Shown piece after piece: positions 25,401 to 58,600 of a DNA stretch of 64,000 nt. Each line of letters opens with the position of its first letter. Position 1 is the stretch's first letter. The notes beneath the pieces were generated by a model. The model was given only the letters and a program-made list of their open reading frames with translations, made no database searches and was not told the DNA's origin. The position numbers were made by a program, and so were the translations under genes. The DNA is from Owenia fusiformis (taxonomy: Eukaryota > Annelida > Polychaeta > Sabellida > Oweniidae), in contig CAIIXF020000006.1 in NCBI GenBank assembly GCA_903813345.2, positions 22,825,936 to 22,889,935 of the forward strand, given 5' to 3'.

Positions 25401-28400
25401 CGTGTATGGACACAAGATGGGACAATCTTATGGTTACCCGGTTGGCATGGCATTCAACATTATCAATGGTAAGACAATATTGAAACTTTTTGTTTTGTTT
25501 TCAATAATACTTTAATTTTGGTGCTGATCAATAGACAAAAAATGAATTTTTAAATACTTTTAAATATTGATAAATCCCGAAGAGCCAGCGTTTATTCAAT
25601 TTTTCAAAAGATAAACTCAGGATCATGAGTGAGCCTGATGAACTTATTATGTTTTAAACGTGACAGCAAGATGCATGCTTGTGAACGTTGTTATATGAAT
25701 TAAATATGTGGACAGAGTACTCAGATTTTATCCAAAATAACCCAGGATTTAACTAACATTTTCAAGTGGATAAATCCCAATTTGGAATGAAGGCAATGGT
25801 CTAAATGAATATGTATGGCCTAACTCAGAAAGAACATACAATGTAATCGTTGGACACAAGAATCATGCTTTGTTCGTTATATGATAACAAAATGAATGAT
25901 CGGATACTTATAAATTGTAATGTAATCAAATAACCTATCAGATTCATTTCCATTTTCAGCACTGAACATTACAATACCCATATAATCTAATCAAATAACA
26001 TATCAGATTCATTTCCATCTTCAGCCCTGAACATTTCAATACCCATATAATGTAATCAAATAACCAATCAGATTCATTTCCATTTTCAGCACTGACCATT
26101 ACAATACCCATATAATGTAATCAAATAACCAATCAGATTCATTTCCATTTTCAGCACTGAACATTACAATACCCATATAATATAATCAAATAACCTATCA
26201 GATTCATTTACAATACCCATGTAATGTAATCAAATAACCTATCAGATTCATTTCCATTTTCAGCACTGAACATTACAATACCCATATAATCTAATCAAAT
26301 AACATATCAGATTCATTTCCATTTTCAGCACTGAACATTACAATACCCATATAATATAATCAAATAACCTATCAGATTCATTTACAATACTCATATAATA
26401 TAATCAAATAACCTATCAGATTCATTTCCATTTTCAGCACTGACCATACAATACCCATATAATGTAATCAAATAACCTTTCAGATTCATTTACAATACTC
26501 ATATAATATAATCAAATAACCTATCAGATTCATTTCCATTTTCAGCACTGAACATTACAATACCCATATAATATAATCAAATAACCTATCAGATTCATTT
26601 CCATTTTCAGCACTGAACATTACAATACCCATATAATATAATCAAATAACCTATCAGATTCATTTCCATTTTCAGCACTGACCATACAATACCCATATAA
26701 TGTAATCAAATAACCTTTCAGATTCATTTCCATTTTCAGCACTGACCATTACAATACCTATATAATATAATCAAATAACCTATCAGATTCATTTCCATTT
26801 TCAGCACTGAACATTACAATACCCATATAATATAATCAAATAACCTATCAGATTCATTTCCATTTTCAGCACTGAACATTACAATACCCATATAATATAA
26901 TCAAATAACCTATCAGATTCATTTCCATTTTCAGCACTGAACATTACAATACCCATATAATATAATCAAATAACCTATCAGATTCATTTCCATTTTCAGC
27001 ACTGAACATTACAATACCCATATAATATAATCAAATAACCTATTAGATTCATTTCCATTTTCAGCACTGACCATTACAATACTCATATAATATTATCAGT
27101 TATTACACGTTTCAGCATGTGATACAGGAAATATTCCACGAAAGTAAAAATTGTATAACCACGAAAGCGCAGCTTGAGTGGTGATACTTTTTTACTGAGT
27201 GGAATATTTCCCGTATCACATACGCTGAAACGTGTGATGACGATTTTATCACATACTATGTAGAAATTTAGTGATTTGATTGGTAGCTTTCTTTGTCGTT
27301 CTAACTTCTAGTTCCTCAAATGACGAATTCATCATTTCTAAGAAATAGTAACATAGCCTATATGTGACGTCATTTTGAATTAGGAAAGAATAGAATGAAG
27401 TTGTATGACGTCATTTCATTACCATAGACAACGTGTGGTATGTGTGCTTGTATCATATGAAATTTATGTGATACGAGAAATACGTCATAGAAAGCAACCA
27501 ATCAAATCACTAGATTTCTACATAGTATGTGATAAAATCAAATAACCTTTCAGATTCATTTCCATTTTCAGCACTGAACATTACAATACCCATATAATAT
27601 AATCAAATAACCTATCAGATTCATTTTCATTTTCAGCACTGAACATTACAATACCCATATAATATAATCAAATAACCTATCAAATTCATTTCCATTTTCA
27701 GCACTGAACATTACAATACCCATATAATATAATCAAATAACCTATCAGATTCATTTCCATTTTCAGCACTGAACATTACAATACCCATATAATATAATCA
27801 AATAACCTTTCAGATTCATTTCCATTTTCAGCACTGACCATTACAATACCCATATAATAAAATCAAAAAACTATCAGATTCGTTTCCATTTTCAGCACTG
27901 ATCATTACAATACCCATATAATATAATCAAATAACCTATCAGATTCGTTTCCATTTTCAGCCCTGAACATTACAATACCCATATAATATAATCAAATAAC
28001 CAATCAGATTCATTTCCATTTTCAGCACTGAACATTACAATACCCATATAATATAATCAAATAACCTCTCAGATTCATTTTCATTTTCAGCACTGAACAT
28101 TACAATACCCATATAATATAATCAAATAACCTATCAGATTCATTTTCATTTTAAGCACTGAACATTACAATACCCATATAATATAATCAAATAACCTATC
28201 AGATTCATTTCCATTTTCAGCACTGAACATTACAATACCCATATAATATAATCAAATAACCTTTCAGATTCATTTCCATTTTCAGCACTGACCATTACAA
28301 TACCCATATAATATAATCAAATAACCTATCAGATTCGTTTCCATTTTCAGCCCTGAACATTACAATACCCATATAATATAATCAAATAACCAATCAGATT

Positions 28401-29494
28401 CGTTTCCATTTTCAGCACTGAACATTACAATACCCATATAATATAATCAAATAACCTATCAGATTCGTTTCCATTTTCAGCCCTGAACATTACAATACCC
28501 ATATAATATAATCAAATAACCTATCAGATTCGTTTCCATTTTCAGCCCTGAACATTACAATACCCAAGCCACCTCGATATCTCCAGTAAGTATGATTATC
28601 TATTGAGCTGGATATCTCAAATAATAAAAATCCACCCATTGGGTAGACTCCCTCCAAAGGTTTGGCAACTCCAATTCAATAGACCAATCCAGTATATCAT
28701 GCCATCTATTGGTTATGATGTCAATCTAACAATTTCAGTGCAGACATAGGATAAAAATATTGCTAATTTTCAAAAACTTGTTTCAATTTTGTTTTCAAAC
28801 ATTTCTGCCTGTAAAATATGACATCATAAATCTAGCTAATATGCCCTAGTTTCCTTGGTTCACAAAAAGGGGTCAGGATTTATAGGAAAGGTCTATTAAT
28901 TTGTCATCAATTCAAATGATACATGTACTTTTGGTGGGTGTTGTACAATCACTGTGTAAAACCATGTAATATAACCCATTGTGGTAAAAAATCACAGAAG
29001 TCATTGATGTATAACTGACTAACAGTTTACTTATATAGTCATATCCATTTTGTAGATGCGAGTGTAAAGTAAGAACTGAACCCACTCCAGGGCCAGGACG
29101 AATCGTCTACAATATCGACAACATCCTGTTCAATGACACCAACAATAACTGCTCCGACTGCAACATCATGCTCCGTCAGTGCCCAAAATTGTGCTCCCGC
29201 AATATAAGCAACCTTTTGGGACAGGATGGTCTTGGTACACTTGTTCTGGTGAACAATACAAACCAACCGTACAATGAGACCCTCGGTCAAGTGATGTGCA
29301 ATAATTACAATGCTGAGGTTCCAGCTCCTGGGTTACTCCTAGCCACTCATACCGTCCCTATTGGTTGTGCTGAAGAGTCAGATGCTTTGTTTATACAGAC
29401 ACAGCCTCAGTATCGTCTATGTTGTATTACTAACCCTACTGGTGGACCACCTTACTGGGATAGTGACTGTGGTGCCCCAACGTCAAATGAATAA
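16482..29494 (+). CDS. secreted DSL/EGF - IgGFc-binding-domain - mucin-like protein (complete, 9 exons)
   Basis: Exons: 16482-16572, 16937-17134, 17346-17477, 17941-18137, 18485-18582, 18830-19026, 23630-25468, 28546-28585, 29056-29494. They total 3231 nt, exactly 1077 codons with the TAA, and all phases agree. Residues 1-30 are a signal peptide starting MAMARDM (the frame is open further upstream, but this ATG precedes the hydrophobic core). Residues ~31-304 hold two similar DSL-like/EGF modules: the sequence GHYTCD appears in both, each is followed by a Cys-rich EGF ending GxFC or GPQC, and EGFs with CLNGATC and CLNGGTC follow. Residues ~305-720 are one IgGFc-binding (FcGBP N-terminal type) domain. 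Then come Thr/Ser/Pro-rich repeats (~730-890) and a Cys-rich C-terminus of 146 residues. No membrane segment follows, so it is probably secreted and perhaps adhesive or mucus-associated (inference). The binding partner is unknown. Confidence 0.85.
16937..19026 (+). CDS. DSL/EGF-encoding exons 2-6 of the IgGFc-like gene
   Basis: Module 1 covers exons 2-3: C-x5-CLYGHYTCD...VCLEGF, then CPDGGCINGYC...CCCSSGWVGPQC, then the EGF CYKQPCLNGATC...FYCSCPEGFEGDFC. A Pro/Thr linker encoded in exon 4 follows. Module 2 covers exons 4-6: CPPNYYGMNCEAYC...GHYTCDPLTGAKLCFEGW, CPSEGCNLGFC...CCC, then the EGF CDSAPCLNGGTC...YTCNCPPNFNGRNC. The second module is a full DSL-like domain (C-x8-C-x3-C...GHYTC...C-x2-GW); the first has lost the front part. 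The repeated order points to internal duplication of a DSL+EGF block. DSL domains are known from Notch ligands, but no transmembrane region is present here, so a Notch role is not claimed. Confidence 0.75.
18138..18183 (+). repeat. (GTTT)n microsatellite starting exactly on the exon 4 donor
   Basis: Exon 4 ends GCCAAG and the intron begins GTTTGTTTGTTT..., about eleven tetranucleotides with one GTAT variant. The donor GT is the first base pair of the repeat, so many equivalent GTTTGT sites lie in tandem. Confidence 0.9.
20757..21085. repeat. nested inverted repeat inside intron 6
   Basis: TAACAAAATGTCTAAACGTC (20793 on) and GTTCAGACATTTTGTTACAA (to ~21052) are inverted, with GCAGAATCCCCAC opposite GGGAATTCTGC nearer the centre and CACTGG as outer ends. 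Both strands therefore give look-alike short frames (VTKCLN...VGRIPT). These are an artefact of the palindrome, not genes. Confidence 0.75.
21535..21800 (+). repeat. GGCCC/AAAA-rich repeat patch
   Basis: A locally GC-rich stretch made of GGGCCC, GGCCTT and AAAATTT blocks, ending near CCGCCCCTGATG. It differs sharply in composition from the surrounding intron. It looks like an old transposon fragment of unknown family. Confidence 0.4.
22096..22650. mobile_element. MITE, CAGGGCGAGCCA family, ~550 bp
   Basis: After TA, CAGGGCGAGCCAAAAAGGTA matches the right end TTGGGTTACCTTTTTTGGCT inverted. The arms continue with CATGGATTTAGTGTCATATT opposite AATATGATGTCAAACCCATG. The right outermost bases are mutated. 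A fragment of the same family is at 3496. Confidence 0.7.
23630..25468 (+). CDS. exon 7: IgGFc-binding domain plus mucin-like repeats
   Basis: The first ~415 codons (PRTNQWYEFIIGFTSN...LQYTPKEQ) show the IgGFc-binding N-terminal fold pattern. It has alternating beta strands and the recurrent segments IRVYSELPIVVHGMN, GFLGIPVRDLGNYYIIPSY, IVVSSDPIAVFSG, DHLIEQIPPVTQWGTIFAI and KPCLVAQYSTGSS, each typical of one repeat of the domain. The following ~200 codons are Thr/Ser/Pro-rich. One very long exon for the whole domain contrasts with the small EGF exons and suggests a separate origin by exon shuffling or retro-insertion (inference). The acceptor is TTATTCCAG at 23629; the frame is open upstream, but phase fixes the exon start. 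Confidence 0.85.
24919..25170 (+). repeat. coding minisatellite: 24-bp unit, ~10 copies
   Basis: A 24-base unit (TCCATCCAAACAACTGCTGA, then CT) encodes the octapeptide SIQTTADx. The first seven copies are near perfect and later ones diverge (SKQTIAG, SNQTTDK, SVQTTIG, SMQTTAD, STETTDE). Dense Ser/Thr predicts O-glycosylation and an extended stalk. Copy number is likely to vary between alleles. Confidence 0.9.
25940..28545 (+). repeat. ~65-bp minisatellite whose unit contains a 3' splice site and the start of exon 8
   Basis: About 32 full units plus a few shortened ones. Each unit holds TTTCCATTTTCAG, then CACTGAACATTACAATACCC, then ATATAATATAATCAAATAAC. The last unit is the real exon 8 junction (TTCAG at 28541-28545), where the sequence after ATACCC changes to AAGCCACCTCG. 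Intact decoys would read eight codons (ALNITIPI) and hit TAA. One copy (near 28155) has AAG in place of CAG, and a few lack the tract altogether. An insertion interrupts the array at 27097-27535. Confidence 0.95.
27097..27535. mobile_element. palindromic insertion inside the splice-site minisatellite
   Basis: Two nested inverted pairs: CACGTTTCAGCATGTGATAC with GTATCACATACGCTGAAACG, and TTTATCACATACTATGTAGA with TCTACATAGTATGTGATAAA, the latter continuing through GATTTGATTGGT / ACCAATCAAATC. Array units resume directly on both sides. It has no coding capacity and is a MITE-like element that landed after the array formed. Confidence 0.75.
28546..29494 (+). CDS. exons 8-9: C-terminal Cys-rich region of the IgGFc-like protein
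   Basis: Exon 8 (28546-28585, 40 nt) encodes ALNITIPKPPRYL and joins exon 9 (29056-29494) through a split Gln codon. Exon 9 encodes about ten cysteines (CECK, NCSDC, QCPKLC, MCNN, GCAEE, LCCI, DCG) and ends at TAA 29492-29494. I recognise no named domain; it resembles a disulfide-rich secreted terminus. Skipping to a decoy acceptor upstream would remove this whole region. Confidence 0.75.
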
Positions 29495-29579
29495 TCCTGC
29501 GACACTCTACCAGTAGACTTTTAATTAAAAAACTTGAATGGTTTACAAGTTTCCAAATGGATTATACCTGAATTTAGAC

Positions 29580-30076
29580 TTAAAGAGGCTCTATACCATA
29601 GGATAGCACAATCAAGACCACTCTGGAATTTCTTTTGCATATTGAGTTGCACCACATATTCACCCATCTACTTACCATAGAAAAAGTCCCAAATCCCCCT
29701 CTTTCAGTGTTAATTTTGCGATTGTGCTGGCCAATTTAATTATTTTCACGGAAATTAATTCAATATGAAGTTTGAATATCCCGGGAAAGTCCTCCTGTTA
29801 TCTGATTGGTCGTTGAATTTGTTTATCATGAAACTGATTGGGTACCTGAATCAAGGGGCTTGTGTGACTCAATGGGGATCCCCCTCGCTAGCCGAGGAAT
29901 CGATTGTGTTTAATTCTGGAGTTTGGTTGTTTTGTTGATTATTTCAATATTTCAGCAATAATATACCAAAAAGTTATTCTCAAGATATATCCATGGTATG
30001 TGAGATATTATGAGCAATAACAATAGGACATCATTGATTGTCTGGGGGAGAAACCTATGGTTTAGTGCATCTTTAA
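29580..30076. mobile_element. MITE-like element, ~497 bp, just after the IgGFc-like gene
   Basis: The imperfect terminal repeats TTAAAGAGGCTCTATACCAT and ATGGTTTAGTGCATCTTTAA face each other. It begins ~85 bp after the stop codon and could form part of the 3' UTR. The opposed short frames around 29950-30250 are not supported as genes. Confidence 0.55.
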
Positions 30077-30077
30077 A

Positions 30078-30371
30078 CCCTGTATACACTGTGAATTGCA
30101 GTTCAACTATTTCTATCAGTTCAATTGATTCAATGTTTGCATCATTTCGAGCAGAGCATTCCAACAGTTTCAAACAATGCACCTTCAAGACTGATTCAAA
30201 GAGTTTTTGCTGCTTGCGCCTGTTAAGCCGCTTCAAGTATTTCAACACATGACCAATTTAACATTTAAACCATGGGCTTTCAATCTATTGAATGCTCATG
30301 TGTAAACCCTTTCAATCAGTTTGACCGCTTCGCCCCAATTCAAACATTTCTCCTGCCAGTGTATACAGGGC
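30078..30371. mobile_element. short inverted-repeat element, ~294 bp
   Basis: CCCTGTATACACTG at the left end and CAGTGTATACAGGG at the right end are perfect inverted 14-mers. The interior has further weak dyads (CAATTGATTCAATG / CAATCTATTGAATG). It abuts the preceding element. Confidence 0.6.
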
Positions 30372-30853
30372 TATAAACAATGAACAAACTTAACATTAAA
30401 AATTGTTTTTTTCATAAATATATTTAACATTATTTATCCCTTCCACGTGTTAGCTAATACTATAATAGCATTTTATTCATAATTATGCTTTCATTGGTGC
30501 AGCAAAAATACTTTCATCGTGTTTATCATTTTGCCAATAATCCAGCTCCAAGCAGAGTATAACTATAATACAAGAGGCAGTGTACACGCCCAGTTTTATC
30601 ATAATTCAATTTTGCTCAGAAGTGTTTAAATCCTGATAACTCAGCTCCAGAAATTCAAAACATGAATAGAGAACATGAATGAAATATATTTTACATGTAC
30701 ATTGTACATATTAACATATTATGATGTAAAATAATACAGGGACAAATTTGAGTTAATAGTTGGCAAGGCAACTAGATTCACCTTGCAGAGTTTCAGAACA
30801 TTAATGCATTTGACTGAGATGATTAAATCTGTTAAAAAATAGAAAATTGTCTG

Positions 30854-33800
30854 CTATTTCGGTCCATCTCCACCACTGCCTGGAGGTTGAGACATGAGTA
30901 GTTGCAATGATTTCCTAGTACTCTCCAAGAATAGATCCATGCTGGCATACTGTCTCTGGCGTAAACTGGAATCCGCCTGAAAATACATCAAATACACGTT
31001 TTGTACTCAAACGTGGATTTAGTTTCACCAATGTTTATGTCTCCATTATAAACAAAATCAGAAGTTCAATGTGAGACGAGAAGAATTTTGGAAAAAGACT
31101 TAAAATTATAATGCTCCATTGCAAGCCAGTAGTCAGCTTTTGCTAATAGGGGGTTCACTGTTCAAAAAATTCCAGGCAGTTTCACAATTGACAACAGCCC
31201 AAAATCACTTGAAAAGTGCTCAAAATTGTAAAAACTGCATGATTTTGAAAGAATTTTTGGCCACCCAACACCCCCCATGGTTAAGGGTCTGACTGTAAGG
31301 ATCAACCTGTGGTCTTAGGTTTGTAAGGAAATAATCTTGTCAGTTAGCTAGGGGTATTAGTTACAGGCAACAGGCAAATTTCTCTGTTTTTACCAAAATC
31401 ACATATTGTTTGAGGAACTTAACAGCCGTTTCAATGTTAAAATAATAATTTCCAATAATTTTGCCTGTTGTTTTCATTTCTTTTCCCTGTTGTTTTCATT
31501 TCTTTTGTTTGCCTGTTGTTTTCATTTGCTTTGCCTGTTGTTTTCATTTGTTTTGCCTGTTACCTGTTAACCCCTGTAACAGTCAACATCTACTTTTTTT
31601 TAATTAAATGGAGCAAACTGAAGAATATAAAGATGAGGCTTTGCAGAGACACCTGTTATGTCATTGATGACTAATAACAACAATTAATAACAATTAGAGA
31701 CATCATTGTATTACAATCAATCAATTGAACTTTCCACTAACTGACCAAGTGTCAGAACAAGCTGTTACAAAGCTGTGAACTTCACCTTTTAATTATGGAA
31801 TCAACTCATTGAATTCAAAAAGTGAAAAAATTCAAAAAGTCAAAATTAGCAAGGAATAATCTGATAATATATATATAATATATATACAGATATGATATTT
31901 ATATATGGTCTTAATTGTATAGGAATACAATGATGTTATGTCTGTCATTGAATGTAAAAAGGTGGGAGAAATATTGATAACGTTTAATAGGGAATAGGTT
32001 AAATTACTTCACTTTTGTCAAACCCTCGTTGACCTTTGATGTGAATTTATAAATCAGGTCCTGCAAGTTCTAAGACAATTATTCTGTCAGTCAGTATAAC
32101 ACAATTTCTATATTGTTTCCCCTATTTTGATGGAATAGGCCTTGGATTGATTTCTATGAAAATTTGAAGCTTATTGTCAACTTATTTTTGTTTGTGAAAA
32201 TTATTTGTAAGGGAGGACAGATTTCTTTTGCAAGGGAAAGTGGGTGTCTATGATGAGGTTAAATTATTAGTACATTCTAAATGAAAATATTAATTAAGCC
32301 ATGAGTAGATCTACATGGGTCAGCTGTCCAAGATTCCCCTCGGGCTAAATTGTACAAATAATGTGCCTATTAATTCAACCCTTCATGAAACTTAATAATT
32401 TAAAACATTCACATTTTTTAATTCAAATAAGCAAGAAAGCAAATAGGGAAGTTTAGTGTTACACAATAATACACATACCAGCTATAAAGGAATTCATACT
32501 TTGGACTTTGTATTTGTCTTCAGATTTTAAGGAAGTTTTTATCATAGCATCATATTTCAAGGACCAAGTGGAGATATCAAAACATATGAATAAAATTCGA
32601 GGGACTGAATAATAAAGTGATACCCTGCCCTAATCAACAAGTAAGTGTTGTTTTATTTTATCTATTGCCGAGTGCATTTAAAAAACAAACAAAAAATCTA
32701 GACACAAATTTTTGCTGGCAATAACAAGAGTAGTTTATGTTATTAAAAGTTCAATTCCAACTGAACAATATGGGAAAGCTATTTACAAATACTTATGTAT
32801 TTTCGTCAGCTGCATTAGAGATAATCAATTCTAAATTTTCCTATTGTGGTTCACCAAGCAAAAATATCACTTAGTGTAAAAAGTAACATATATCTTGATA
32901 ATGCATTTTGAATGTGATAAATATGAAATAAATATGAAACTAGAAAAACAGCAACTCCACGGAGTAGCAAATCCCACCGAACAAAACATATTATGCTTAT
33001 TATAGCTAGTGTAAATGTTGAAATGTTTGTGCACTTTGTGATAAAAGCATGAAATTTGGCACAAAGTTAGTTTATACCATTGTGAACTAGGCATCATCAT
33101 ATAAAATTTGAACCAAATCTGTTCACTGGTATATGAGTTATCAAAGATTACGTTTTTTACGAAAATTGGCCGCCATCTTGAAAATTATTTCTTGAACAGA
33201 GCTACTGTGTCCCTAGGCATAATCATATAAAATTTCAGCAAATCTGTTCACTGGTATTTGAGTTATCAAAGATTACGTTTTTTACGAAAAATTGCCGCCA
33301 TTTTGAAATTAAGCAGCCATCTTGAAAAAATTTTGACGAACATAGCTACTGTGTCCCTAGGCATCATCAATATTCCAATAAATGTTCATTAAATATCAAA
33401 TTGTCCCGCAATCCGCAAAGCAATGCAACAATAATTTTTAAAGAAACATTTTTGCATATTCTGCTTTTTGCCATTTTATTAGGTATTTTTATGAGTTAAC
33501 ATAATGAACAGAGATTAGAGTCTGTCAGATAGTAGGGGCAATGTTGGTGCACCTCGTACTTCTAATCCTGGATTATCATGGGATTATCTATACACTAACT
33601 GTCAAAGTCAGACCCACATATTAAAGGTGTCAATTTGATGATTTTATGACAATGACTAAACACAACATAAAAGCACACTCACTTGCTTGAGTGGAAACTC
33701 AAGGAAGCAAAGATGACATTATTTTTGGCTATGACTTAAAGTGGCAGCAAAGAACAATGAGTGCAAGTGTTGCGACAAGAGCTCTTGGGACTTTAAATCA

Positions 33801-36800
33801 ATACAAGTTAGTTACTTTACATTAATAGTTACTTCAGTTACTTCAGTTACTTCATTAACAGTTACTTCACAAGTTAGTGTAAAATTTGAACAAAAGTGTA
33901 TCTTTTGGCCGAGAGGGCTTAGGCGCCAGCATGTTCAGGCTAGGCGATTGGGCGCCGTAACCACGAGGTTGCGAGTTCGATACGCGGTGTGCTCCGTGCG
34001 TTTATTCATTCACTTTCTCACCTGTTTTTGTTCATTTATATATGTTTTCATATCATCTCTGGCTGCATTGATAGCTGTCTGTGTTGCCTCGCTAGCTTTA
34101 CTTCTTTCTGCTTCTATAGCTTCACTAAGACATGTCTGTAACAGATTGGAATATGTCTGTACGAGAATACTATGTCATGGGTCATGTTTGAAAATGTAAA
34201 AAATACTGCTTATCCAAAAAGTGTTTATGTAAGGCTTTTTGAACTTTCCAAGGGACAGATAAGAGGGGTCTGGTAATTCAGAATGGATTACCCCCAATAA
34301 CCTATGTAGCTTACCTTACTACTAACATTCTGTTCTGCTACTGCTGTAGCGATGGCCTCCTTCCCTCTCTCACGCTCTTCATCTAACAAATCTAACAGCT
34401 TTTTCTAAAAGAATAAAAGTTGCATTTATTATATTTAAGGCTCATTAATGAAAATGTAAGTCTATTTCAAAATGTGTTGTTTTCTTAATTTGAATCAAAA
34501 ACTTATTGTAGCCTATATGAATTGTAAGTGAAAATTCTGGCTGGTATCTCATAAAATTAAATTGTATAAGACAAATATCATTATTATCCAAAAGCATCAT
34601 TGTGCTAAATATGAGAAACATCTTATTCACAAAAACATTACTGGATCATGATTAAATCCTTCAATGGTATAAACTATATAACTAAAATAAGGCACCTCTT
34701 TCAATGGTTTCAGTATAATTCCTGACAATAGGCAAAATTAAAGTAAACTGTGATCTCAACATGGAAATATATTTCTTGAAATAATAGCTGCTAAGGAAAC
34801 CTCTGTATTTATTCAACCAATAATGATAACATACCTTTTCATCATCTATAAATGCCTGAGACTTGACCTGTTCTTCTTTGACTGCTTCACGTATTGCATC
34901 CTTGCTTTTCTGTCTCTCTTCCTGCAAGCAAGGACATGTATACATGTACAGTAAAGCAGTACTTACAGAATGTACAGTATAGTATACATGTACAGGAGAA
35001 CAGTATGTACAGTGAATTACATACGTACAATAAAACAACACACAGTATGTACAATAAAGTATACATGTACATGTATAGTAATAAAAAAGTATGTGCCGTA
35101 AAGTTATACACATGCAGTAATACAGCTCAGATGTACTGTAAAGTACACAAGCAGTAATACAGCTCAGATGTACTGTAAAGTATACATGTACAGTAAACCT
35201 TTGTATCACCCCAGCCCCTCTTGGACATTTTTTCAGTTTCATTGCACTGGTTTAAAATATTATTTGAGGAAGTATCCACTAAACACATTATGTTCTTGAT
35301 GCATTTTATCTTGATACCCTGTTATACAAAGCAGTGGGTAAAACATGGTTCATCCAAATTACGATCTTCTTTGATTCACTCGGCTCCACTCGCCCGATAA
35401 AGTATGTAGAGATGATTTATGAGGGTAGGAATTTAAAAAATGCAATAAAAAATTGCAATAAGAAAATAATATACCGGTATGAACATTGAGAAAGATAAGT
35501 AATTTAGGTATATGTATATTATATCACCTCACTTACCTCTAAGGCTTTTTCTAATATCTCTCTCTGTTTTTCCTGTTCATTTTTTATACATTTTTCCACA
35601 TATTCCTGAAAAGGATATTTTATATTGTCATTTCTACAAATTGTTAAACTTGAGTTTATTGTATTGTCAAACTAGACAACAGCAACGCCAAAGCGTAGCA
35701 AATCCCATCGAATAGCCATGGCTGGGATTTTTACAAAGTATATAGCATAAATGACAGCCATTTTTCAAAATGGCCATCTTCTACCAAAAGTGTCATTAGA
35801 CAGTGTGCTATGCTTATAGTATTCACATACCAAATATGAACAAAATCGCTCCACTACTTTTTGAGTAACTGCAAAAATCGAGTAAAGGCCATTTTTCAAG
35901 ATGGCTGCCATGTGCTTCTTTAATATCTATACATTTCTAGCTTTATTAATGTCCTATATAATTTTTTTACATTTAAAACATATTGCTATTACAGTTTTAC
36001 ATATTGCACCTAAATTACTGTAAAATCAGCACTAAAATGGCCGCCAATTTTAAATGAGCGGCCATTTTGAAAATCAGCTTTCGAGCAGAACTTCTACCCC
36101 CATAGGGTATATGTGTACAAAATATTAACAAAATCAGGCCAAAGGTATTTGACTCATTACCCGGACGGATGGACGGAGGCGTTCCCTATATCCCTCCGAA
36201 CTTTGTTCGATGGAATAACTAATTAAACAAATGTTCAGGACATATTTGGTTGCTCAACTCATTAGTGTTAACTATAGGCTACTCTTGAACGTTTTTACAT
36301 TCTTAAACAAGCATTAAAAATAACCCTTCGATAATCTTAACTAATTATCATATACGTGACCAATTTTCAAATGTATTATCTACTCATTGCACAAAATGAA
36401 TTTCAGCAAATAATATTCATTTCTTTGAGGAAATGTAACATAAAAAATGTTATATAAACTGGGCTTATTGTATGATAATTGATTTAAATTAAATTTGTAT
36501 AATACAAATTCTATTTCTAGCTTTTTTACCTTACTAGTCTTCTTTTGCTTTTCTATAGCAGTTTTAATGGCTTCTTGCATGTTTGATTTCTCTTCTTCCA
36601 GAATTTTCTGAAATTCGTCACTCTGTTTTGCCTTTTCCTTGTCATATTTTTCTAGTTCACTTTTTAAAAGTTCTTTGAAATGTTCTTCGTTCAATTGCTG
36701 TTGTTCTAATACTGCAGTTTTACAAAGTTCCTGAAAAAAATTAGATTCATGTTGAAGGATTCTAGTCAGATTCTATGTTTTTCAGTAATTTAATGTGTTT

Positions 36801-44700: not shown

Positions 44701-45698
44701 ATAAGGTTGACATCATTTTGGGGTAACTTCGACAACTTGTTATTTTTCTAGAAACCAGACAATGGCGGAAAACAGAAATTATGAATTACAATAAGTAAGT
44801 GTCAAAGGTACCCTATTTCTCACGTCGACATTACCCCTTTGCCCTATCTGGTCTACTTTTAAGATGGAAACAGAAATAACAAAAATCATTTAAATTTCCT
44901 GGTGGGGGGATCAGATGGAGGGGGGGATAACATGTATTTAAGACATGATAAGACATGCTACATGTAGTTGAATTTATTCTTATGACTCCAAATTTTCCCA
45001 TTTTTCATTCTCCAGAGATATAATTTCCAGTTTCTTACTGGGGTACTGAGTTTAGTTTTTTCAAATACACAAGTTCTTGTGAATTTGTTTCATTGTATAA
45101 ACATATAAATCCCCCCCCCCATCCCATCTCCCCTCCATCCGATATTAATTTATTTCGATTATTTTTTGTATAACGCATGGAAACTAACTTTAAAAAGTGA
45201 GCAATGTCATTAGTATTGTGATAATAACGTCCCTAATTTATACCTATTTATTACAGGTCATGTAGACCATTGTTGCCCGATTTATAGCAAAAACATTGAC
45301 TTTTGCACGTTGGTGATGATGCGCCTTTCTTAATAGATCTCATATCTAAGAAGGGTATCAGTTAAAAAAATAGTAGATGACCTAACATATTTTGCCATGC
45401 ACTGCGCCTATTCAATTGGCAATTCAGTTGTAAATTTTCTCTTGAAAAAATAAATCTTCCAAATTGTTGAGTTTTCTTGCAGAAATCGCCTAATCCCCCA
45501 CTCCATCCCATTTGTACGATCACCAGTCTTGACCTATTGTACTATACATTTTTAATGAAAGAGTCTAGAGATCTGAAATCAAACCAAAAATCTCTGTTGT
45601 CCCTATTGCTATATCACTGAATTGATTGATCAAATAAGATGTATTTCTGTCAGATAGATTCTGCAATCGTTGTACAATACATGGATTTGATAACTCAG

Positions 45699-46115
45699 AG
45701 ATGCGAGATGCCAATTACCAGTTTCACCACCAGGTGGCTCATTCAGGTCAGATTGCATGGCGGGTATAGTCGAAAGTTCCCTTTAACTTTTTGCTTTAGT
45801 GGTTCAATTTTCATATTACCATTATGTATCTAATAGTTATGCAAATTAAAACATGTTCTGTAAAAGAAAATATTATCTGTCCAATAAAAGAAAAGATATT
45901 TCATTTCTAGTGATTTTATAACATGGGGTCTATGGGGAATCTCCCCGAACTAGAAGTCACATTTTCTAAAAAAAATTAGATTTTCGAATTTGATAAATAA
46001 TTTTTGAAACCATATTTCTAGATGTACTTTTACATGTAGGTTTCAAATATGACCTCACTTTGACTGAATTTTGAATAATTAATGACATATATCGAGATTA
46101 TTTCTATTCGCATTT
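45699..46115 (+). mobile_element. AGATGCGAG-ended MITE, copy 1 (upstream of FAR)
   Basis: ~417 bp. It starts AGATGCGAG, ends CTATTCGCATTT, and contains CCACCAGGTGGCT, AAAAGATATTTCA and ACATGGGGTCTATGGGGAAT. It is the same as the copies at 48573 (inverted) and 52483, and more diverged than they are. Confidence 0.75.
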
Positions 46116-46623
46116 TACAAAGGGAATTTAAAAAGGACATGTGCGATAGTTTAAGAATGTCAAGTGTTCTGACCAGTATTTATTTGAATTAGAAGTTATA
46201 GGAGATACTCTACTGTACTTGAACTTGGGATCCCACTATGACTTATCTCTGCTGTCATTGTGCTAACCTGTACCATGGGCTTTCTATTGAATGCCCATGC
46301 CTTTACTGTACAGAAGTCTGAGCTCATTCTTTTAATAATTTCTCATGAATCTCTAACGTCCTTGATTTTCTACCAGAATGTATGATATTTTTAAATTATT
46401 TATTTTGTGACATACTTTTTTAAAGCATGTTAGTTGATGCTAGTTGCTACACTATTAATTTAATCATAAAAAATATCTGTTTTTATATTTAGAATTTAGA
46501 TTTATTGATTTTTCTGTTTTCAGATATATGATAGACCCAGAACAACACGAATGAAAACAAAAAATCACTAATTAAACATACAAAAACAAACAATTGTGAC
46601 ATCACAAAGCTTTTTATTAAACA

Positions 46624-49600
46624 ATGGAGATGCCAACAGTGCCAGAATTTTACGCTGGACGGAACATTTTTGTCACAGGAGCAACTGGTTTCCTGGGAAA
46701 GGTACTAATTGAAAAACTTTTAAGATGTTGCCCGGATATAAATGGCATATATATGTTGATGCGGCCCAAAAGAGGACATACTGTTGCAGAAAGATTAAAG
46801 GATTTAGTAGAATCAAAGGTAATATTAAATGTAGTAATACATTTACTACTAGCTTTATAGCATTTAAGCATGCATAGATCTAGGGCCTATAATCTAGAGT
46901 CCCAAAGGCCCACAATTCCATGAGGTATGATCCCCAACTAATATGAATTTCAAGGCTGAACGTTCAAATAGACCTAGGGACTACCCCCCCCCCCCAACTT
47001 GGGAGTCTGTGAGACCAAAATCATAATACTTTTGCTAGTCTCACATACCCCTGAGCATACTCCCCTGTACTTTGGATGTTCAAAACCTGTCAGATGGTAT
47101 AATATTCAAATTTTGCTTATTAGTTCAATTTTTGACTCATATCTGTATGATTATAAAACATGAGCATGGAAAGTGAATCAATGAAAAACATGATGAATAT
47201 TTCATAAGTCATTCATAAGTATATAGTAGTGTTCCAAATTGTAGTGAAAACTGGTGCCGGTATTTCCGCAATTCAATACCTTACCGTAACCGAATACCAC
47301 GGTTTTGGGTCTACGTTCGCGAATTCGTACATTTCTGTGACTGTGTTTAGATTTTTAGAAGTTTTTGGTGGTGAATTTGGTCCCTTTCATACAAACGCAG
47401 TTTATAGTCATGATTTATCAATGCCTTACCTGATTATCGATAATTTCTGCATTGAATTAAGACATTTACAGCCAGCTATTTAACACAGTCGTTCCTCAAA
47501 TTGAAAAAAAACGAAAAATGGGAGACAAAAACAAAATGTAAATATTTCCGATGTGTAATGATTACTCTTCTTCACTTTTTATCAATGTTAAACACATAAT
47601 CTTGCGATTTCTGGTAAGATTAATTGATTCTTTAGATATTCCGGTATCTGGTATTGGAATTATAGTCCCGACAGGCCAGAATGCCACCGTAACGGTACTT
47701 CCGGCAATACCGCAGACCACTAGTATATAGAAGGGTAAATTGATGGGGTATACAATTGCATTATGAAGAAAGTCTTTCAGATACTAGTATTCCATGTGAC
47801 ACATTTAATAATTGTATCATCATAGTTCTCCTGAAGTACTATGTATAAAAAGATTTTATAAACAAACAAAAATTTCGGTTTTCACTTTTCAGTCAGGGGG
47901 GCGTGCGATTGTGGCATAAACAAGCCAAAATAATAAGATTTTTACAGAAATTGATGCAACTTCCTTCAAAAATGAACTAGAAGCTTCAAATAAAAAGCAT
48001 TTTAAAGCCCTCCCACCCTGGCTACACCTATGACAAAACAATTACAGGGTGTGTCATGATTATATTAACTTAGAAACTGGTTAAAACAATATAATTGCTG
48101 ATGTTATGAAATAGTCAAGTAGGCTGGGACATTTTGAAACTAAGATTCAAAGGCTGCTAATTATGTTGTACCCCATTCAGAAGTAAAGCACTTTAATGAA
48201 TTTTGAAAGGTGCATTTCAAAGTTGTTATTCTTTAAAATACCATGGCTGAGTATACATTTTGTTCTTTGACCCGAGAAACCCTTCATTATTACTTTTATC
48301 AAGTGGCATACCAGTAAATAACACATGTATGCTAGTTTCATGTGAACATTCAGTGAAACCATGGGCTCTTAAAAGCTCATGATGAAACTTATCAAAAAGG
48401 TCACTTGTATTTGCTCTTTCAATCGAATCATTGTCTCATGGTCAAGTCAGTTTGTTTTTTATTTTTGCATTAGCAAAAAGTTTGGCTCATAAAGTTTCAT
48501 ATACGTACTCATGAGCCTCGATGCTGTTCAAAACCTGAGTAAGTGACAAGAGAAGTTGTGGGGCAATATCCTAGATGCGAGTAGAAATAATCTTGATTTA
48601 CATCATTAAAAATTCACAATTCAGTCAAACTGATGTCATATTTGGAATCTACATGTAAAATTACAACCAGAAATGTGGTTTTGAAAAGATATAATATATA
48701 TATATATATATAATCAACTTTGAAAATTTAATTTGTTTTGAAAATGTGACTTCTAGGTCTGGGAGATTCCCCATAGACCCCATGTTGTAAATCCACAAAA
48801 AGTGAAATATCTTTTCTTGTGTTGGGCAGATAATATTTTCTTTTACTGGACATAATTTCATTTGTATGTCTATCACATACATAAGGGTAATATGAAAAGT
48901 GAACCACTAAAACTGATGAATATTCAGGTTTAAGGGAAATTTGTAAAACCCTGCCATGTTATTTTCCCCGAATCAGCCACCTGGTGACGAAACTTGTAAC
49001 TACCTACTCGCATCTGACTAATTGTTTATGGTTATGAAACCATACATGTATTATCTCAAATCAACCTGTAGAAATCACCTCTCAAAGTCCATTAATACTC
49101 AGCTGATTTATGTTGGTTTAATCCATGGACTTTAAGTTCATGTTTATTGAAACTAATCTTTGAACTTTATTTATATTTGTACTCTATATCTTGCGAAAAC
49201 AAGTTAATTTGATCACTAATTTTTGGGTTATTTAAATTTATTTTTGATGAGTGCTCTGGAATGTTGCTGTGCACTTTGCCATTAAAATTTAAAAGTTCTT
49301 GTGCACTGAATGACTGGTCTGTTATACATATTACAACCATGTCCATATTATGCAAATAGTCTTCTTAAAGTCCCCGTCTAAAGTTTGAAAATATTTTTTT
49401 AACATTCATTTACTATTTGTCATGACTTAAAAAGTTATTTTAGAGATTAAAAAAAAAAATTGGGAAAATAGTTATGAGCATTTCATTTCTCAAATATTCA
49501 AATTTCCCGCCATTTTTCAAAAAAATTGAAATATTTTAATCATCAAATATTTCTTAATGCATTTCAAAAAAGATTATATTTTTAACACCAATGCAATGAT

Positions 49601-52600
49601 TGAACAAAGAACATACCATTTCAATAATAAAATGCCATATTTAATGGGCCACTTCAATGTTTTAGCATATCAAATTTTTTTGCAACATTAGTGATGTCAT
49701 TATGACTCACTCAGGTGGCAATCTTTTCTAAATATGCTAGACTTCAATAATAAACCAATGTTGATTGTCTACACAGGTTAAAAGGAAGAATATATTATGA
49801 AATGCATTTTTCTCGGAACCATTTTCATGCACTGATGAGTTCATTTCTCGCTTATTTATGAACCGATTTTCTTAATTTTTTCGGCAAAAAACATGCAAGG
49901 GTGAACGCTATGTATTGGTATGAATTGTGGCTTATTAAAAGATATGCGTGCCCTCTAAAAATTAGTTGTAAATAAATTCACAAATTTTTGAACAAGAAGT
50001 CCTTCAAAAACCACATATCACCCTTTGATAACATGGGGTAAGACTATAATATAAGCCAAAGTGGTTTAAACGTTATATGGGGACTTTAAGGGTATTTCCA
50101 GATTCATGAAAATTAGTCAAAGTAGTTGTTCTGTTGTCATGCTCCATTATAATCTGTATGTCAACTAGGTAGTGCATTTTGTATTTGTCAACATTCTTAC
50201 CAGTAACCCTTATATGGTTACCCTAACACTTAAATCCCCACCCCCTCCACTAAGTTTAACCTCAGAATTACAGATGTTTGGTCTTTTTCAGATATTTGAA
50301 AAATTAAAAACAACCAGTCCGAACTATGGAGAAAAACTTCACGCAATTGCAGGTGACATCATGGAACCAGATCTTGGAATCAGCCAATCAGACGCTGAGT
50401 TTTTAGCAAATGAAATTTCAGTCGTGTTCCACTCGGCGGCAACTATACGATTCGATGAACCACTGAGGTATGAATTTAATTTAATTGCATACTTGCAATA
50501 CAATCTTGGATTACATATCTTCATAGTATATTCATTTCAGATATGATATTACAGTATTAAACCTACATCGACTCATTTTATTAAGAATGTTGCTACTTTA
50601 TGTGCTATTAATAATATGTGAGAAATATGAATTGTGGCATATGTTTGTAATGTTATTTTAGGCTAAAGCCCTTTCATTTGAAATGATTATATTGTGAAAA
50701 TAACCATCTGAAATGCAATTAACTGCTTGCTTTATCACAAATATAACTGTACATGTATTTTGAAACCTACATGTTGATTGCATGTTTTTCTCTTGCATAT
50801 TACTGCCTTAATGAATAAACCATACGGCCAACTTGAACGAAAGGGCTCGTCTCGCCACTATCAATAGATAGATATCTCCTTGTAAACTATTCAATAACTA
50901 CCATCATATGCAAGTGCTTGGATAGATTAATAAATAACAATTGATAAAAGTAAATGAGCATTTGTTGGAAAAATCGATATTATGATCGTTTAACTTTTGG
51001 AATGCATACCTAACATACATGTAGATTGTAGAACATAAGCTTATTATATTGCTAAAACCCGGGTTGCTAAATAATTTTATGTTGCTGATCATGGTTTTCA
51101 AGTGAAAGCTCATTGGTGAATGAAAAAATTTAAAAATGAAAATTGATTTTTAAAACTGAAGTTTTTTGCAAAATGGTATTAAATATTTTGACCTTATGTA
51201 TGTCTCTGACTACAACTTCTGCTGTTTTCATATTATCTGATGTATTTGATATGTTAAGTTATACATTTTTACAAGAATATACAATATGATATAAGTAAGA
51301 TAAGGTTATTTAATCAGAGGGATTGAATATGAATTTTATTTCGAGGGAAAATATGATATTGACCGAGTGCGATATTCCTTCACGACCATCAATAACCTAT
51401 TTATTCCGTAATATTTTTCTGAAACTTGTTTGTATGTCGTCACTCCATGATGGTGATCGTAAATGATACAATTTAATTAATCCCATGACATTTTCAAGGT
51501 TTAACAAATTTTAAAATAGAAATAATACTAATAATGTTCATATGATGCCATAATAGCACAATATTAAGTCTCATGAAATTTTCTGATAGTTCTGATACGG
51601 GATCTGATACACAATTTTGGCTGATACAGGACCCAATATGATACAGGACTTTGGCTGATAGTTTTATGCCCAGTTTATTTCCCAGGGAAAACATGTTATT
51701 ATTGAATAAATCGAAGAAAAAAGAAGAAAAATTAAAATTGATGATGCTAAAAGAGTGGTATCGATATGGAAAGCTTTTTGAACACATGTTTCTCTTAAAC
51801 CAGTCATGAAAAAAATCTAAAAATTTAACACATCGCCAATTCAATGGTCATCCTTTGAATGGTAACAATATAATTTGAAAAATATATATATACTTTCATC
51901 TATATTGTTTTAGAAAACACATCAAACACTTGTTTTGTTCTTGGTTTCATGTTTCCAGAGTGAAATTAAACATCTTTCCGAACCTCATTGGAACAAAACG
52001 ACATAAACACAACATGTTTAGGTCTCTCAATATAAGTATCTTGTTAATGAAATAAAAGGTTTATTTTGATTTTTTATCTATCTTGGGGGGATTTTGTTTT
52101 AATTTTTTGAATACTTTTTTGAAATCAACCAAAAATTCCTTTGAACAAGTACAACTATAATATTGAGAAGTGTAAAAACATGTTGTATGTGCTATTTTGT
52201 TCCAACAAGGTTCGGAAAGACATTTTATTTCATTTTCAAGAATTGGTAGAAAGGAGCCAAAATAATTGCACTAAAAAAAAAAAAATGTTAACAAAACCAG
52301 TTGTATAAATATTTCTAAATAATTTTCGCATTAAATTGTTGTCAATCAGTCAACATTACATAAATTACCATGTTTTTTTACAGAATGTTTTCAATGATTG
52401 GTTTAAGAGAAAAACATTGTTGAATTCAATTCTCCATATTGATACCAATCCTTCAAGTTGATTTGTCCATTCATAATTACTCAGATGCGAGTAGGTAGTT
52501 ACCAGTTTCGCCACCAGGTGGCTGATTCGGGGGAATTAACATGGCAGGGTATTACAAAATTCCCTTAAACTTGAATATGCATCAGTTTTAGTGGTTCACT

Positions 52601-55600
52601 TTTCATATTACCCTTATGTATGTGATAGTTATACAAATTGAAATATGTCCAGTAAAAGAAAATATTATCTGCCCAACACAAGAAAAGATATTTCACTTTT
52701 TGTGGTTTTACAACATGGGGTCTATGGGGAATCTCCCCGACCTAGAAGTCAAATTTTCAAAGAAAATTAAATTTTCAAAGTTGATAAACTTTTTTCAAAA
52801 CCACATTTCTAAATGTAAGTTTACATGTAGATTCCAAATATGACACCAGTTTGACTGAAATGTGAATTTTTAATGACGTAAATCAAGGTTATTTCTACTC
52901 GCATCTGGGATATTTAATCCTTACAAATTATCACAATATGTCACAACATAGATATATGTTCATCTAACAATCCCTCTTTATCATGGGTAATACATGATTT
53001 TTGATATATTCATTGAAAATGAAATATTAATCATATATTATTGTTCCATTTATAGAGTGGCAGTTACTATGAATCTTCTAGCTGTTAGAGCAATGATCAA
53101 TTTGTGCAAGACATTCAAACAGCTAGATGCATTTATCCATGTTTCAACAGCCTATGCTAACTGCGATAGGACCCATATTGAAGAGACAGTCTATGATCCT
53201 CCTGTTGATCCACAGAAAATTATAGATGCTTTAGAGTGAGTATATGTTATGTGTGTTCCATTTTAGAGGAAGCAAGTTCTGAAATTCCAAATGCAATTTC
53301 AGTCTGTTGAGATTCCGTTCCTTGCCAGCCCTATTTATTACCATTGGAGCAACACTATTTTACTTGTTTTTGTTGCAAGTAATATTGTAAAAAAGGTGTA
53401 CAAAATCCAACTAGCACTGTGAACTGGAAACTAGTTTTTATGTCCCCACCACATATTGTGGGGCCATGTTGTCGGCCTAGGCACGTCCGTCTGTTCGTCC
53501 GTACATCCGGCAGTTTTCTCAAGAACTGCTTCAGATATGACCTTCAAATTTTCAGGGATAACTCATGAGTGCATACAGATGTGGACGAAAGATTTTTAGC
53601 TTGATACCTACTTCCTGTCGGCCATTTTGAAGTCAAATGCTAAAATCCTTTTCTGCAAACTTTAAGAAAAACGGCTTCACGGTTGCTTTTAAAACTTTAA
53701 CATCTTGTTCAGCTTACTTCATTCTACATCTGATTAGGTTTTGGACCTGTTAGTTCAGTCATGTCAGCCATTTTTAATGTCTTAAGAAAAGTTAGCGCAC
53801 GATAATACTTTGTTTCACATTGAACGGTGTTTTTAAGTTTTCATACTTAAACTATTTAGTAGCTTTATAAATAATTCCAAGTGTACTTTGCTGTAAAAGC
53901 CTATGTTATTGTTAACAGTAGTTATATGTGATAATTTTGTAAAAAGAAATGAGCAAAAAATAGTAATCACTTTTTTTATTGTCAGCCATTTTGGATTTTT
54001 CCATCCTAAAATTTTGTCTGTAAAGTCTTGTCTACATGTTTTCAGGTGAACCGTTTGGTAGATCAATTTCAAATTTTCAGGGATGATTCTTAGTATGAAA
54101 ATCTAAATCTGATTAGTTTTTTGGCATTCTGGGTAAATGTCAAGGCAGCCATTTTGGATTTTCCGTCCTAAAATCGTGTCTGTAAAGTCTTGTCTATGCG
54201 TTTCAGGTGAACCATTTGGTAGATCAATTTCAAATTTTTAGGGATGATTCTTATTATGAAAATCTAGATCTGATTAGTTTTTTGGCATTCTGGGTAAATG
54301 TCAAGGCAGCCATTTTGGATTTTCCGTCCTAAAATCTTGTCTGTAAAGTCTTGTTTGCGAGTTTTCTGGTTTACTGTTTGACGGATCAATTTCAAATTTT
54401 AAGGTGGCCATTTGCATTTTCCGTCCCAAAATTGTAACGGTAAAGCTTGTTTACTGATTTACAGGATAACCATTTGATGGGATCACCAATTGGTGGGGAC
54501 ATATTGTACACATTTGTGTTCTTGTTTATAGATTGTGTCACCTATAAGTTGCATGTTTGCACTGTTTTCTCCCTTTTTTACCCCTTCCTTAAGTTACATA
54601 TTTGTACTGTCTTTCTAGATGGATGGATGATGAGACAGTGGAGCAATTAACACCAGGATTAATAAAACCTAAACCAAACACCTACACATACACCAAACAA
54701 TTAGCCGAGAGTTTACTGCTAAACGAAGGCAAGGGATTGCCGTTAGCTATTGTGAGGCCATCTATTGTTACTGCATCATGGCAAGAACCAATGCCAGTAA
54801 GTTGTATGATGTTAACTTTCAAAGTTAAAAAAATTTACATTTTTTCGAGTTTGATTTCGAGGATTGGCAAATTCTCAAAATAATGTTCAAATGTTGGCTA
54901 AAAATAAGAATATTTTTAGATAGATTATACATTGCTCTTTAAATTGTATTGTCATTATCCTGTGTCTAGTAATTAAACACAGTGTCTACTGAATCTATTA
55001 TTATTTACGCTTACATTCTTTTGCGTGACCTTACATCTTATCTCAATTGAAAAAAGCCTGTCATCTAGTATATCTCAAATCTTATTGGTATGTATATTTA
55101 AGGTAGGTTGAGAATAATAGGTAAATATAGCAATTAACATACACAAAAAGCTCCAAAATCATCATACATGGTCCTCCTTAAGAAGTTAACTCTAGGCTTG
55201 GTATTTATGTTTCTTTTGTTGTATATTTCAGGGCTGGATTGATAATTTAAATGGTCCCAGCGGAATGTACATAGCTGTAAGTACTGTTCTAGTTAATATT
55301 TTACTCTATGTGTGTTTTGTGTATATTATTTACATTTAATGATATTCACATTTTTGGGTACAGTACATTGGGATTAACATTTTACAAACATTATTGTTTG
55401 GTTTAAAAATCCTGAGTTATAATTCAAAGTAGTGTCCTTGGTTCATTTATGTATTTGCATTTTGCACTTGGACATTTTCTTAATAGTACCTTGCATAAAA
55501 AAGTTTGATAGGTGGGGGTCTCACTATTCTTATCTGTCTAATTTTAATTTCCAGGGCTGTTTCTTAGTATGAAAATCTAGAACTGATTGTCTTTGATTCA

Positions 55601-58600
55601 TGATAGGTAAATTCAAGGCATCAATTTTGAGGTACAATATTATTCACCCTGTGTCCTGTTCACAATCATTCTATCATAAAAACATTTGATTCTAGGCTGG
55701 CAAAGGATTACTGAATTTTTCACCCTGTGTCCTGTTCACAATCATTATATCATAAAACCATTTGATTCTAGGCTGGCAAAGGATTACTGAATTTTTCACC
55801 CTGTGGCCTGTTCACAATCATTATATCATAAAACCATTTGATTCTAGGCTGGCAAAGGATTGCTGAATTTTTCACCCATTGTCCTGTTCACAATCATTAT
55901 ATCATAAAACCATTTGATTCTAGGCTGGCAAAGGATTACTGAATTTTTCACCCTGTGTCCTGTTCACAATCATTATATCATAAAACCATTTGATTCTAGG
56001 CTGGCAAAGGATTACTGAATTTTTCACCCATTGTCCTGTTCACAATCATTATATCATAAAACCATTTGATTCTAGGCTGGTAAAGGATTACTGAATTTTT
56101 CACCCATTGTCCTGTTCACAATCATTATATCATAAAACCATTTGATTCTAGGCTGGCAAAGGATTACTGAATTTTTCACCTGTTGTCCTGTTCACAATCA
56201 TTATATCATAAAACCATTTGATTCTAGGCTGGCAAAGGATTACTGAATTTTTCACCCATTGTCCTGTTCACAATCATTATATCATAAAACCATTTGATTC
56301 TAGGCTGGCAAAGGATTACTGAATTTTTCACCTGTTGTCCTGTTCACAATCATTATATCATAAAACCATTTGATTCTAGGCTGGCAAAGGATTACTGAAT
56401 TTTTCACCTGTTGTCCTGTTCACAATCATTATATCATAAAACCATTTGATTCTAGGCTGGCAAAGGATTACTGAATTTTTCACCTGTTGTCCTGTTCACA
56501 ATCATTATATCATAAAACCATTTGATTCTAGGCTGGCAAAGGATTACTGAATTGTTCACCTTGTGTCTTGTTCACAATCATTATATCATAAAATCATTTG
56601 ATTCTAGGCTGGCAAAGGATTACTGAATCTTTCACCCATTGTCCTGTTCACAGTCATTATATCATAAAACAATTTGATTCTAGGCTGGCAAAGGATTACT
56701 GAAGTCTGTGTTATGTGACTCTGATGCTGTTGCTGATATCATCCCAGTTGACATGCCTACAAACATGTTAATATTGGTTGGTTGGTACACAGCCACACAT
56801 AAACCAAGAGAGGTTCTTGTATACCATTCCACAACAGGAACTGTGAATCCATTCACCTGGGGACAGATGGGTAGGTTCCTTTTTCATTTATTTTTGTAAT
56901 TAAATGTAACAGTAAGAATGTCTGATTCTGATCACTGCTCGCTTCCCATTGTGTCATGAACCATTCAGTGTAAAATAATAATTAAGTTCTAACATTTCAT
57001 TGTAACGTTTTACAAAGTTTTGGAATCACTGATTTTAATTCTTAGGAAAGTGATTGAAAAGTATTTTTATGCCAATCATTGATGTTACTCTTGGAGATTC
57101 TTGGGACTGTTCTTATATTTTATTATTATTTTTAGATGCACATTTTTTGTCCATGAATGCTTTGATTAATGAATTTGATTTCTAATGTGATTTTGCTCTA
57201 CAGTATGATGTGATTTCACATTAAAAAAGAACTATATTTTTGAAAATCAGAAACAGACAATTTTATCACTCTAGGTTAAATTCAGTTGTATCTTTTGTGA
57301 GTATAGAAAAGTTTAAGAGACATTTTTTATGTAAGCATAAATAATGATTTGCTACAATTCGAAGTGACAGCGTTTACTCGTTTAGTTCATTGTCATACAT
57401 CAGTGTTCTCCCTAGGATTTGTATTCACATGTTTGTTTATTGTGTAAAATTCTCATAATTTCACAAATCTGGCCAATAAAGTTAGTAGAAACTTGACAAA
57501 TTTATAGATTTTCACAGTATGTATATATTCAAAATCTGAATTGGTTGCAACATCCATATGCTTTATTCACACTCGGGAGAACACTGTGTATCATGATACA
57601 AATATATAATAAATATAATGTAAAGATTGACAGTAGTCTAGCTACAAGCCCCTGTGAGTCCCCCCTCTGAACTACACACCTCCCAATATGTTGTGTTGGT
57701 AAAGTAGATAGGGGGGGGGGTGGCAGTCTTGAAGCGAGACTTATTGACAGAAATTTTTGTTCACTGTAGTAATGATGAAAAGTCTTGTTTTGTTACAGAA
57801 AGAACATTAATTACTTGTAATGAAACTACATGTACACTGTTTGATAAAGTTGACCTTTTGTTTGATGAGTTTTGTGAAAAACAATGAATGCTATCTAAAC
57901 CTGCCCTCATGCTTAATGACAGCTGCCTTAATGTAGTTTTTTGCAGTTTCTCTCGTATCTATGAAAAATTTTCTTTAAGTCGTAGCTGCTTGTACCTCTC
58001 TTTTTAAAACCTGTTTGCTAATAGTCGCTCTTGCAGATGTAATATCTACTTTTGCTTTAACATCTTATCATGAGTTCTTAATAAGATATCCTACATTTTT
58101 CTTTAAAGGGTTGCCTTGACAAGAATTGTTATAAATGCAGTGCAGTGATCTCCCCAGCACTAAAGCAAGTTGGCGCAGCATCCATCTGAGATTTCAAAAA
58201 CAGGCTTGCATCTTCCACCTGAAAATTCATTTGCCCCCACTTCAAAATGAGAACACTCATGGAAAATGGGCACATTTTGACCAATTTTTGTCTCAGTTGT
58301 GAAAATCAGAAAAAATCCTGTCGAGAACACTGCAGTGGAAAGTATTAATGTCTCAGTTTAAAATGCAGACTTTGACCTTAAGTATTGTGTTACTGCCAAT
58401 GTGTTTGCTTCAGTGGGTGCAAATTTCTAATTTCTGCATTTCAGCCCAAAATTGGTCAGAATATCTGAATATTGTTATAGTTTTGTTTATTGATCATGTC
58501 AAGGCAATTCTTTGAAAATAGACATTTTGGCAAGCTAGTTAGAGTTGGACCCAGAGATAGATAGCACATAATAAGATAATATATAATCTCAAAGATTTTT

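Follow-up and report, generated by a model that had tools for sequence, protein, structure and literature searches.

The DNA analysed here is a 64,000-nucleotide stretch of the annelid Owenia fusiformis (assembly GCA_903813345.2, contig CAIIXF020000006.1, positions 22,825,936 to 22,889,935, forward strand), referred to in full as the window. In it, two genes 27 kb apart, one IgGFc-binding-like and one of fatty acyl-CoA reductase (FAR) type, each carry a tandem array that crosses the 3' splice junction of an intron. Host genes were modelled by splice-aware alignment of protein sequences derived from the same genome, and arrays were delimited with Tandem Repeats Finder (TRF). Both approaches bear out an earlier sequence-only reading, in which the two genes were said to share this layout.

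Two arrays across 3' splice junctions

Array 1, with units of a 65-bp family, lies in a gene whose product combines EGF-like and IgGFc-binding parts (Pfam EGF, 31.4 bits; IgGFc_binding, 168.1 bits). It consists of 32 acceptor-bearing units of approximately 65 bp and three 44-bp units without an acceptor, and its end falls 21 nt inside a 40-nt exon. All 32 acceptor-bearing units retain the AG at the acceptor end, in the form CATTTTCAG in 30 units and CATCTTCAG and CATTTTAAG in one unit each. The array is split by a foldback insert, which comprises a self-complementary part (27099-27241, 143 bp, 80%) and an inverted pair (27242-27299 and 27482-27539, 58 bp, 93% identity).

Array 2 (76 bp x 14.0) lies in a gene that encodes the domains NAD_binding_4 (272.9 bits) and Sterile (78.6 bits), a make-up that we take to be that of a FAR. 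Its end is located 20 nt inside the following exon, and all 14 units end in TTTGATTCTAG, with the junction form TTTGATTCTAG/GCTGG (here and below, a slash marks the splice site).

By homology, only the last unit of each array would be joined to the exon and give the protein. The homology-based models thus agree with the prediction that the unit spans the intron/exon boundary and that the last unit is the functional one. Such a position follows from the duplication itself, because copying an acceptor-crossing segment leaves the exon on the last copy; where a donor-crossing segment is duplicated, the exon stays attached to the first copy. Absent further splicing, all 31 upstream acceptors of array 1 would lead into an in-frame stop codon 23 or 35 nt further on, and all 13 upstream acceptors of array 2 into one 57 nt further on. 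The possibility that the units are true repeated exons was rejected, as the consensus unit of array 1 contains no GT and all upstream acceptors of both arrays reach a stop.

Both genes have a paralogue nearby in which the corresponding intron holds a single acceptor copy, and both arrays are therefore derived. A second IgGFc-binding-like gene (L014) is encoded on the minus strand and lies 15-25 kb before the start of the window. The counterpart of the array-1 intron in this gene measures 222 nt and has a single acceptor, whose surroundings can be aligned with the array-1 unit on both sides of the junction, in the end of the intron and the start of the exon; the best upstream copy of this junction scored 19/40, which is background. 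The second FAR gene is situated approximately 29-41 kb downstream of the window and has an intron at the same site (GIIAA/IGKG against GMYIA/AGKG), 884 nt long, with no array and a best upstream junction copy of 20/40. In each pair compared, one paralogue carries the array and the other does not. Since the introns at the same site hold a single acceptor copy in the paralogues, the arrays arose after the introns, each through tandem amplification of a segment that crosses an already existing 3' splice junction.

A common origin of the two arrays was considered and rejected. Genome searches with the last units, in which the best candidates were scored and very common words skipped, gave 35 matches for array 1 and 6 for array 2, all within the respective array. 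Because each search matched its own array alone, the 65- and 76-bp units are unrelated, as had been read from the sequence.

Table 1. Features of the two array-bearing genes in the window
Feature	Position	Strand	Basis
Exon of the IgGFc-binding-like gene, 5' of array 1; donor TCAATG/GTAAGACA	23630..25468	+	Spliced alignment and paralogue in L014
Intron holding array 1, 3077 nt	25469..28545	+	Homology-based spliced model, paralogue
Array 1, 21 nt of it exonic	25918..28566	+	TRF, homology-based spliced model
Foldback insert in array 1, resembling a miniature inverted-repeat transposable element	27097..27541 (ends by eye)	.	Self-complementarity
40-nt exon joined to the last array-1 unit (ALNITIPKPPRYLQ); donor GTAAGTAT	28546..28585	+	Homology model
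Next exon of the IgGFc-binding-like gene, modelled as far as the last codon	29056..29491	+	Spliced alignment
FAR exon 5' of array 2	55232..55276	+	Homology-based spliced model
Intron holding array 2, 1407 nt	55277..56683	+	Homology-based spliced model, FAR paralogue
Array 2, 14 x 76-bp units, 20 nt exonic	55639..56703	+	TRF
FAR exon joined to the last array-2 unit	56684..56870	+	Homology-based spliced model, Pfam domains

In the exon upstream of array 1, an additional intron proposed by the aligner (24844-25383) was discarded because the open frame continues through it. Positions 24925-25169 of this gene contain a coding minisatellite (21/42/63 bp) that encodes Thr-rich SIQTTAD repeats. In the FAR gene, the intron at 54797-55231 (EPMP/GWID) is absent from the downstream paralogue, indicating a gain or loss within the pair.

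Acceptors, donors and random positions in sampled gene models

The recurrence of such arrays was surveyed in 29 further stretches, which comprised window-adjoining DNA, IgGFc paralogues, 11 SLC6 loci and 8 ALDH loci, one of which was covered by two neighbouring pieces. The resulting sample contained 24 homology-built gene models from four families; two of the seven FAR/IgGFc models (C8a and C8b) were left out as unreliable. In the junction-copy test, a 40-mer of 20 exonic and 20 intronic nucleotides was compared with the adjoining intron up to a limit of 3.2 kb, and a match required at least 29/40. Three of the 178 modelled introns were dropped as spurious. Among the remaining 175, a cut-off of 0 for the score of each site removed 20 acceptors and 26 donors, and 155 acceptors and 149 donors were kept. 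A stricter first filter, in which both sites had to be strong, had retained 79 introns with 1 acceptor and 4 donor matches. It lost the FAR acceptor among others, and the looser cut-off was chosen after this first result had been seen. One SLC6 acceptor (L032) was shifted by hand to TTTCAG/CCACTATG, the aligner having picked an exon-internal AG.

Close junction copies were detected at 4 of 155 acceptors (the two window arrays and the SLC6 loci L032 and L033) and at 4 of 149 donors (one in the ALDH locus L022, three in the SLC6 locus L035; Fisher P 1.0). Matches scored 31-40/40, while all other junctions scored at most 27. When the two window genes were left out, the remaining 22 models had such copies at 2 of 143 acceptors and at 4 of 135 donors (Fisher P 0.44). 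At random intronic positions in the same 22 models, taken from introns of at least 200 nt with both site scores at or above 0, matches were present at 159 of 2629 positions upstream and 168 of 2629 downstream. Exclusion of introns bearing boundary arrays reduced these numbers to 98 and 109 of 2470, respectively. In the sampled gene models, the acceptor rate was accordingly not above that of donors or random intronic positions, the outcome that the sequence-only reading had named in advance, for a genome-wide count, as making the pair a coincidence. Its interpretation holds in part: the structure recurs, at 6 further junctions in the 22 models, but shows no preference for acceptors.

Array counts gave a similar picture. 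With a period of at least 20, TRF reported 35 arrays wholly within modelled introns and nine rows touching a junction. Three of the nine, namely two rows of one array at ALDH_L021 and one at SLC6_L031, were dropped because those model parts lack homology support. The 6 boundary arrays among 41 compare with 4.95-6.38 expected if founding units were placed at random (P[>=6] = 0.37-0.64), and outside the window 4 of 34 compare with 4.66-6.0 expected. As observed and expected counts are close, arrays are neither detectably enriched nor strongly depleted at junctions, and the window pair is not beyond what random array placement yields in this genome.

The boundary arrays outside the window vary in unit length. 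In L032 (1970-2976), nine acceptor-bearing units, each 114 bp or 38 codons long, form a single open frame throughout, and the inner acceptors could yield in-frame insertions; the acceptor units of L033 measure 32-37 bp. The SLC6 gene L035 (G000:C6:5609000-5617500, minus strand) contains a donor array of 5.8 copies of a 68-bp unit and, in addition, two donors with two copies each, the latter detected by the 40-mer test alone. In this gene, three introns have duplicated donors and two others have arrays within them, a possible local hot spot. The ALDH gene L022 has a donor array of 113 bp x 4.0 at the exon end FTGSTG/GTAAGT. A second, more degenerate donor-spanning repeat is present in this gene on the minus strand (reverse-complement 1058-1410, exon end ...ARHLYR/GTAAGT); its three copies scored 31-35/40, and it was not counted because its exon falls outside the aligned query.

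Other features were seen in the sampled DNA. Downstream of the window (6.6-23.4 kb; L009-L011), two direct repeats of approximately 4 kb, equal at 3977 of 3998 bases, flank an open frame of 2592 amino acids in an arrangement resembling a long terminal repeat retroelement, and each contains a minisatellite of 91 bp x 19.6. L036 contains tandem alternative versions of one SLC6 exon (2957-3127 and 3376-3507), which are probably mutually exclusive. PF16915 (Eryth_link_C, erythrocruorin linker domain), presumably an annelid-specific domain, gave three weak matches above the cut-off (28-38 bits). Searches for COX1 and for a molluscan haemocyanin domain returned no match; the second outcome carries no weight, as its controls were silent too. 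The GC content of the amphioxus genome is about 41%. Sampled loci outside the window contig had a GC content of 34.8% over 218 kb, and the available part of a survey of annelid genomes gives a mean of 39.6% (PMC11371463).

Origin and persistence of the arrays

We conclude, with a probability of about 0.8, that the two arrays belong with the boundary-spanning minisatellites known in amphioxus as "mirages", which arise at random and are tolerated by splicing. Birth would be by ordinary tandem duplication, through slippage or microhomology repair, and subsequent growth and homogenisation may proceed by unequal exchange or conversion. Survival of an array would rest on the copy next to the exon, in which the junction stays intact. 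Splicing would use this copy through exon definition with the downstream donor, and the upstream acceptors would be tolerated decoys, the use of which is predicted to cause an early stop in both genes. Within array 2, the mean identity to the other units was lowest for units 1 (0.93), 13 (0.926) and 14 (0.932), was 0.94 for unit 3 and ranged from 0.956 to 0.969 for the remaining ten. The low values of units 1, 13 and 14 would resemble those at the edges of minisatellites.

Several points weigh against this interpretation. Edge divergence was not evident in array 1, where 31 of the 32 units were compared. The survey comprises 24 homology-built gene models from four families, and its control positions are not mutually independent. 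Matches also cluster by gene: the L035 SLC6 gene accounts for three donors and the L022 ALDH gene for two, one of them uncounted. Given this clustering and the distance of just 27 kb between the window arrays, local hot spots are possible.

Selection for redundancy or regulation, in which extra acceptors secure or tune splicing as decoys that slow it or as a source of isoforms subject to nonsense-mediated decay (NMD), appears improbable. The AG is intact throughout both arrays, the early stops that would result from upstream use are compatible with control by NMD, and minisatellites at human exon-intron boundaries are described as altering splicing in the available part of PMC2812944. However, an intact AG is unremarkable because just 13 of the 76 columns of array 2 vary, and the paralogues manage without an array. 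Furthermore, donors are likewise affected and boundary arrays occur at the frequency that random placement predicts, so the suggested selection for redundant acceptors finds no backing here.

Even less probable is the preferential seeding of arrays at acceptors, whereby repair or replication slippage, with polypyrimidine tracts or R-loops as possible starting points, would create acceptor minisatellites. The presence of two acceptor arrays in neighbouring genes had suggested this mechanism, and two more acceptors were found outside the window (L032 and L033). Nevertheless, in the sampled models donors were affected at least as often, and junction matches exceeded neither random intronic positions nor random array placement.

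That the arrays mark new introns gained by tandem duplication of the Rogers type is very unlikely. Intron gain has been proposed for amphioxus mirages (PMC3087553), and the intron missing from the FAR paralogue indicates that introns do change in this family, but both array-bearing introns are single-copy at the same position in the paralogues and the arrays are therefore younger. An assembly artefact, with repeats collapsed or expanded, is the least credible explanation: although tandem arrays are prone to such errors, the units differ by point changes, array 1 holds a foldback insert and similar arrays occur at unrelated loci, so that copy number may be off but the structure hardly.

Known systems and implications

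The sequence-only reading had supposed the class to be undescribed. However, the same boundary-spanning structure is already in print for amphioxus, where the available parts of PMC3087553 (section 16) and PMC3902484 describe mirages in Adh3, globin and other genes, with PGBD5 and TnC added in the latter. In these sources, unit lengths of 10-72, 150-160, 157, 60 and 108 bp are given, and reverse transcription PCR and haplotype length differences are reported. The Owenia arrays likewise are tandem and minisatellite-like, with units of 32-114 bp that are part intron and part exon (intron end plus exon start, or exon end plus intron start). As in amphioxus, both 5' and 3' boundaries are affected: acceptors in the window, L032 and L033, and donors in L022 and L035. 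In contrast to the amphioxus cases, the Owenia arrays occur in an annelid and contain up to 32 copies of a junction, and abundance was measured on a sample with controls.

Among human genes, interferon-induced 6-16 (G1P3) carries a donor-site minisatellite with short units that each contain a splice signal. Human boundary minisatellites have also been published for genes in segmental duplications, with 27 intron modifications and novel introns, according to the available part of PMC2812944. These cases and the Owenia arrays have in common boundary minisatellites whose copy number differs between paralogues. The human paralogues are near-identical and show alternative splicing, whereas the Owenia paralogues are older and described by gene models; as far as the available text goes, the likeness lies in the boundary position. 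Intron gain by tandem genomic duplication, as set out in the accessible part of PMC4974935, likewise involves duplication of splice sites, but the Owenia introns predate the duplication. Intronic minisatellites have been linked to alternative splicing in Caenorhabditis elegans (PMC4039745, in part available) and occur in an earthworm metallothionein gene with exon-4 duplications absent from transcripts; neither has a bearing here, and boundary-spanning units were not encountered in the available portion of the earthworm report (PMC12783039). In the open-licence literature searched, no report of the structure from annelids or other non-chordates was recognised. New here are the host lineage, the sampled rate with controls and the paralogue comparison.

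A broader generalisation is tentative and, in our judgement, rather doubtful. It would hold that about 2% of splice junctions in this non-chordate genome (6/278 outside the window genes) carry boundary-spanning tandem copies under essentially no purifying selection, that its spliceosomes routinely reject up to 31 near-identical decoy acceptors, and that open-frame arrays, the SLC6 acceptor array of L032 (9 x 114 bp) among them, feed length isoforms, new exons and new introns that vary between individuals. For gene annotators and variant callers, boundary arrays are a warning of false exons. Near-identical tandem splice sites with one correct choice provide a natural test of site choice by exon definition, and paralogue pairs with and without an array make its cost and isoform effects measurable. 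Overall, a rate of about 2% of sampled junctions outside amphioxus suggests that mirages may follow generally from dense minisatellites.

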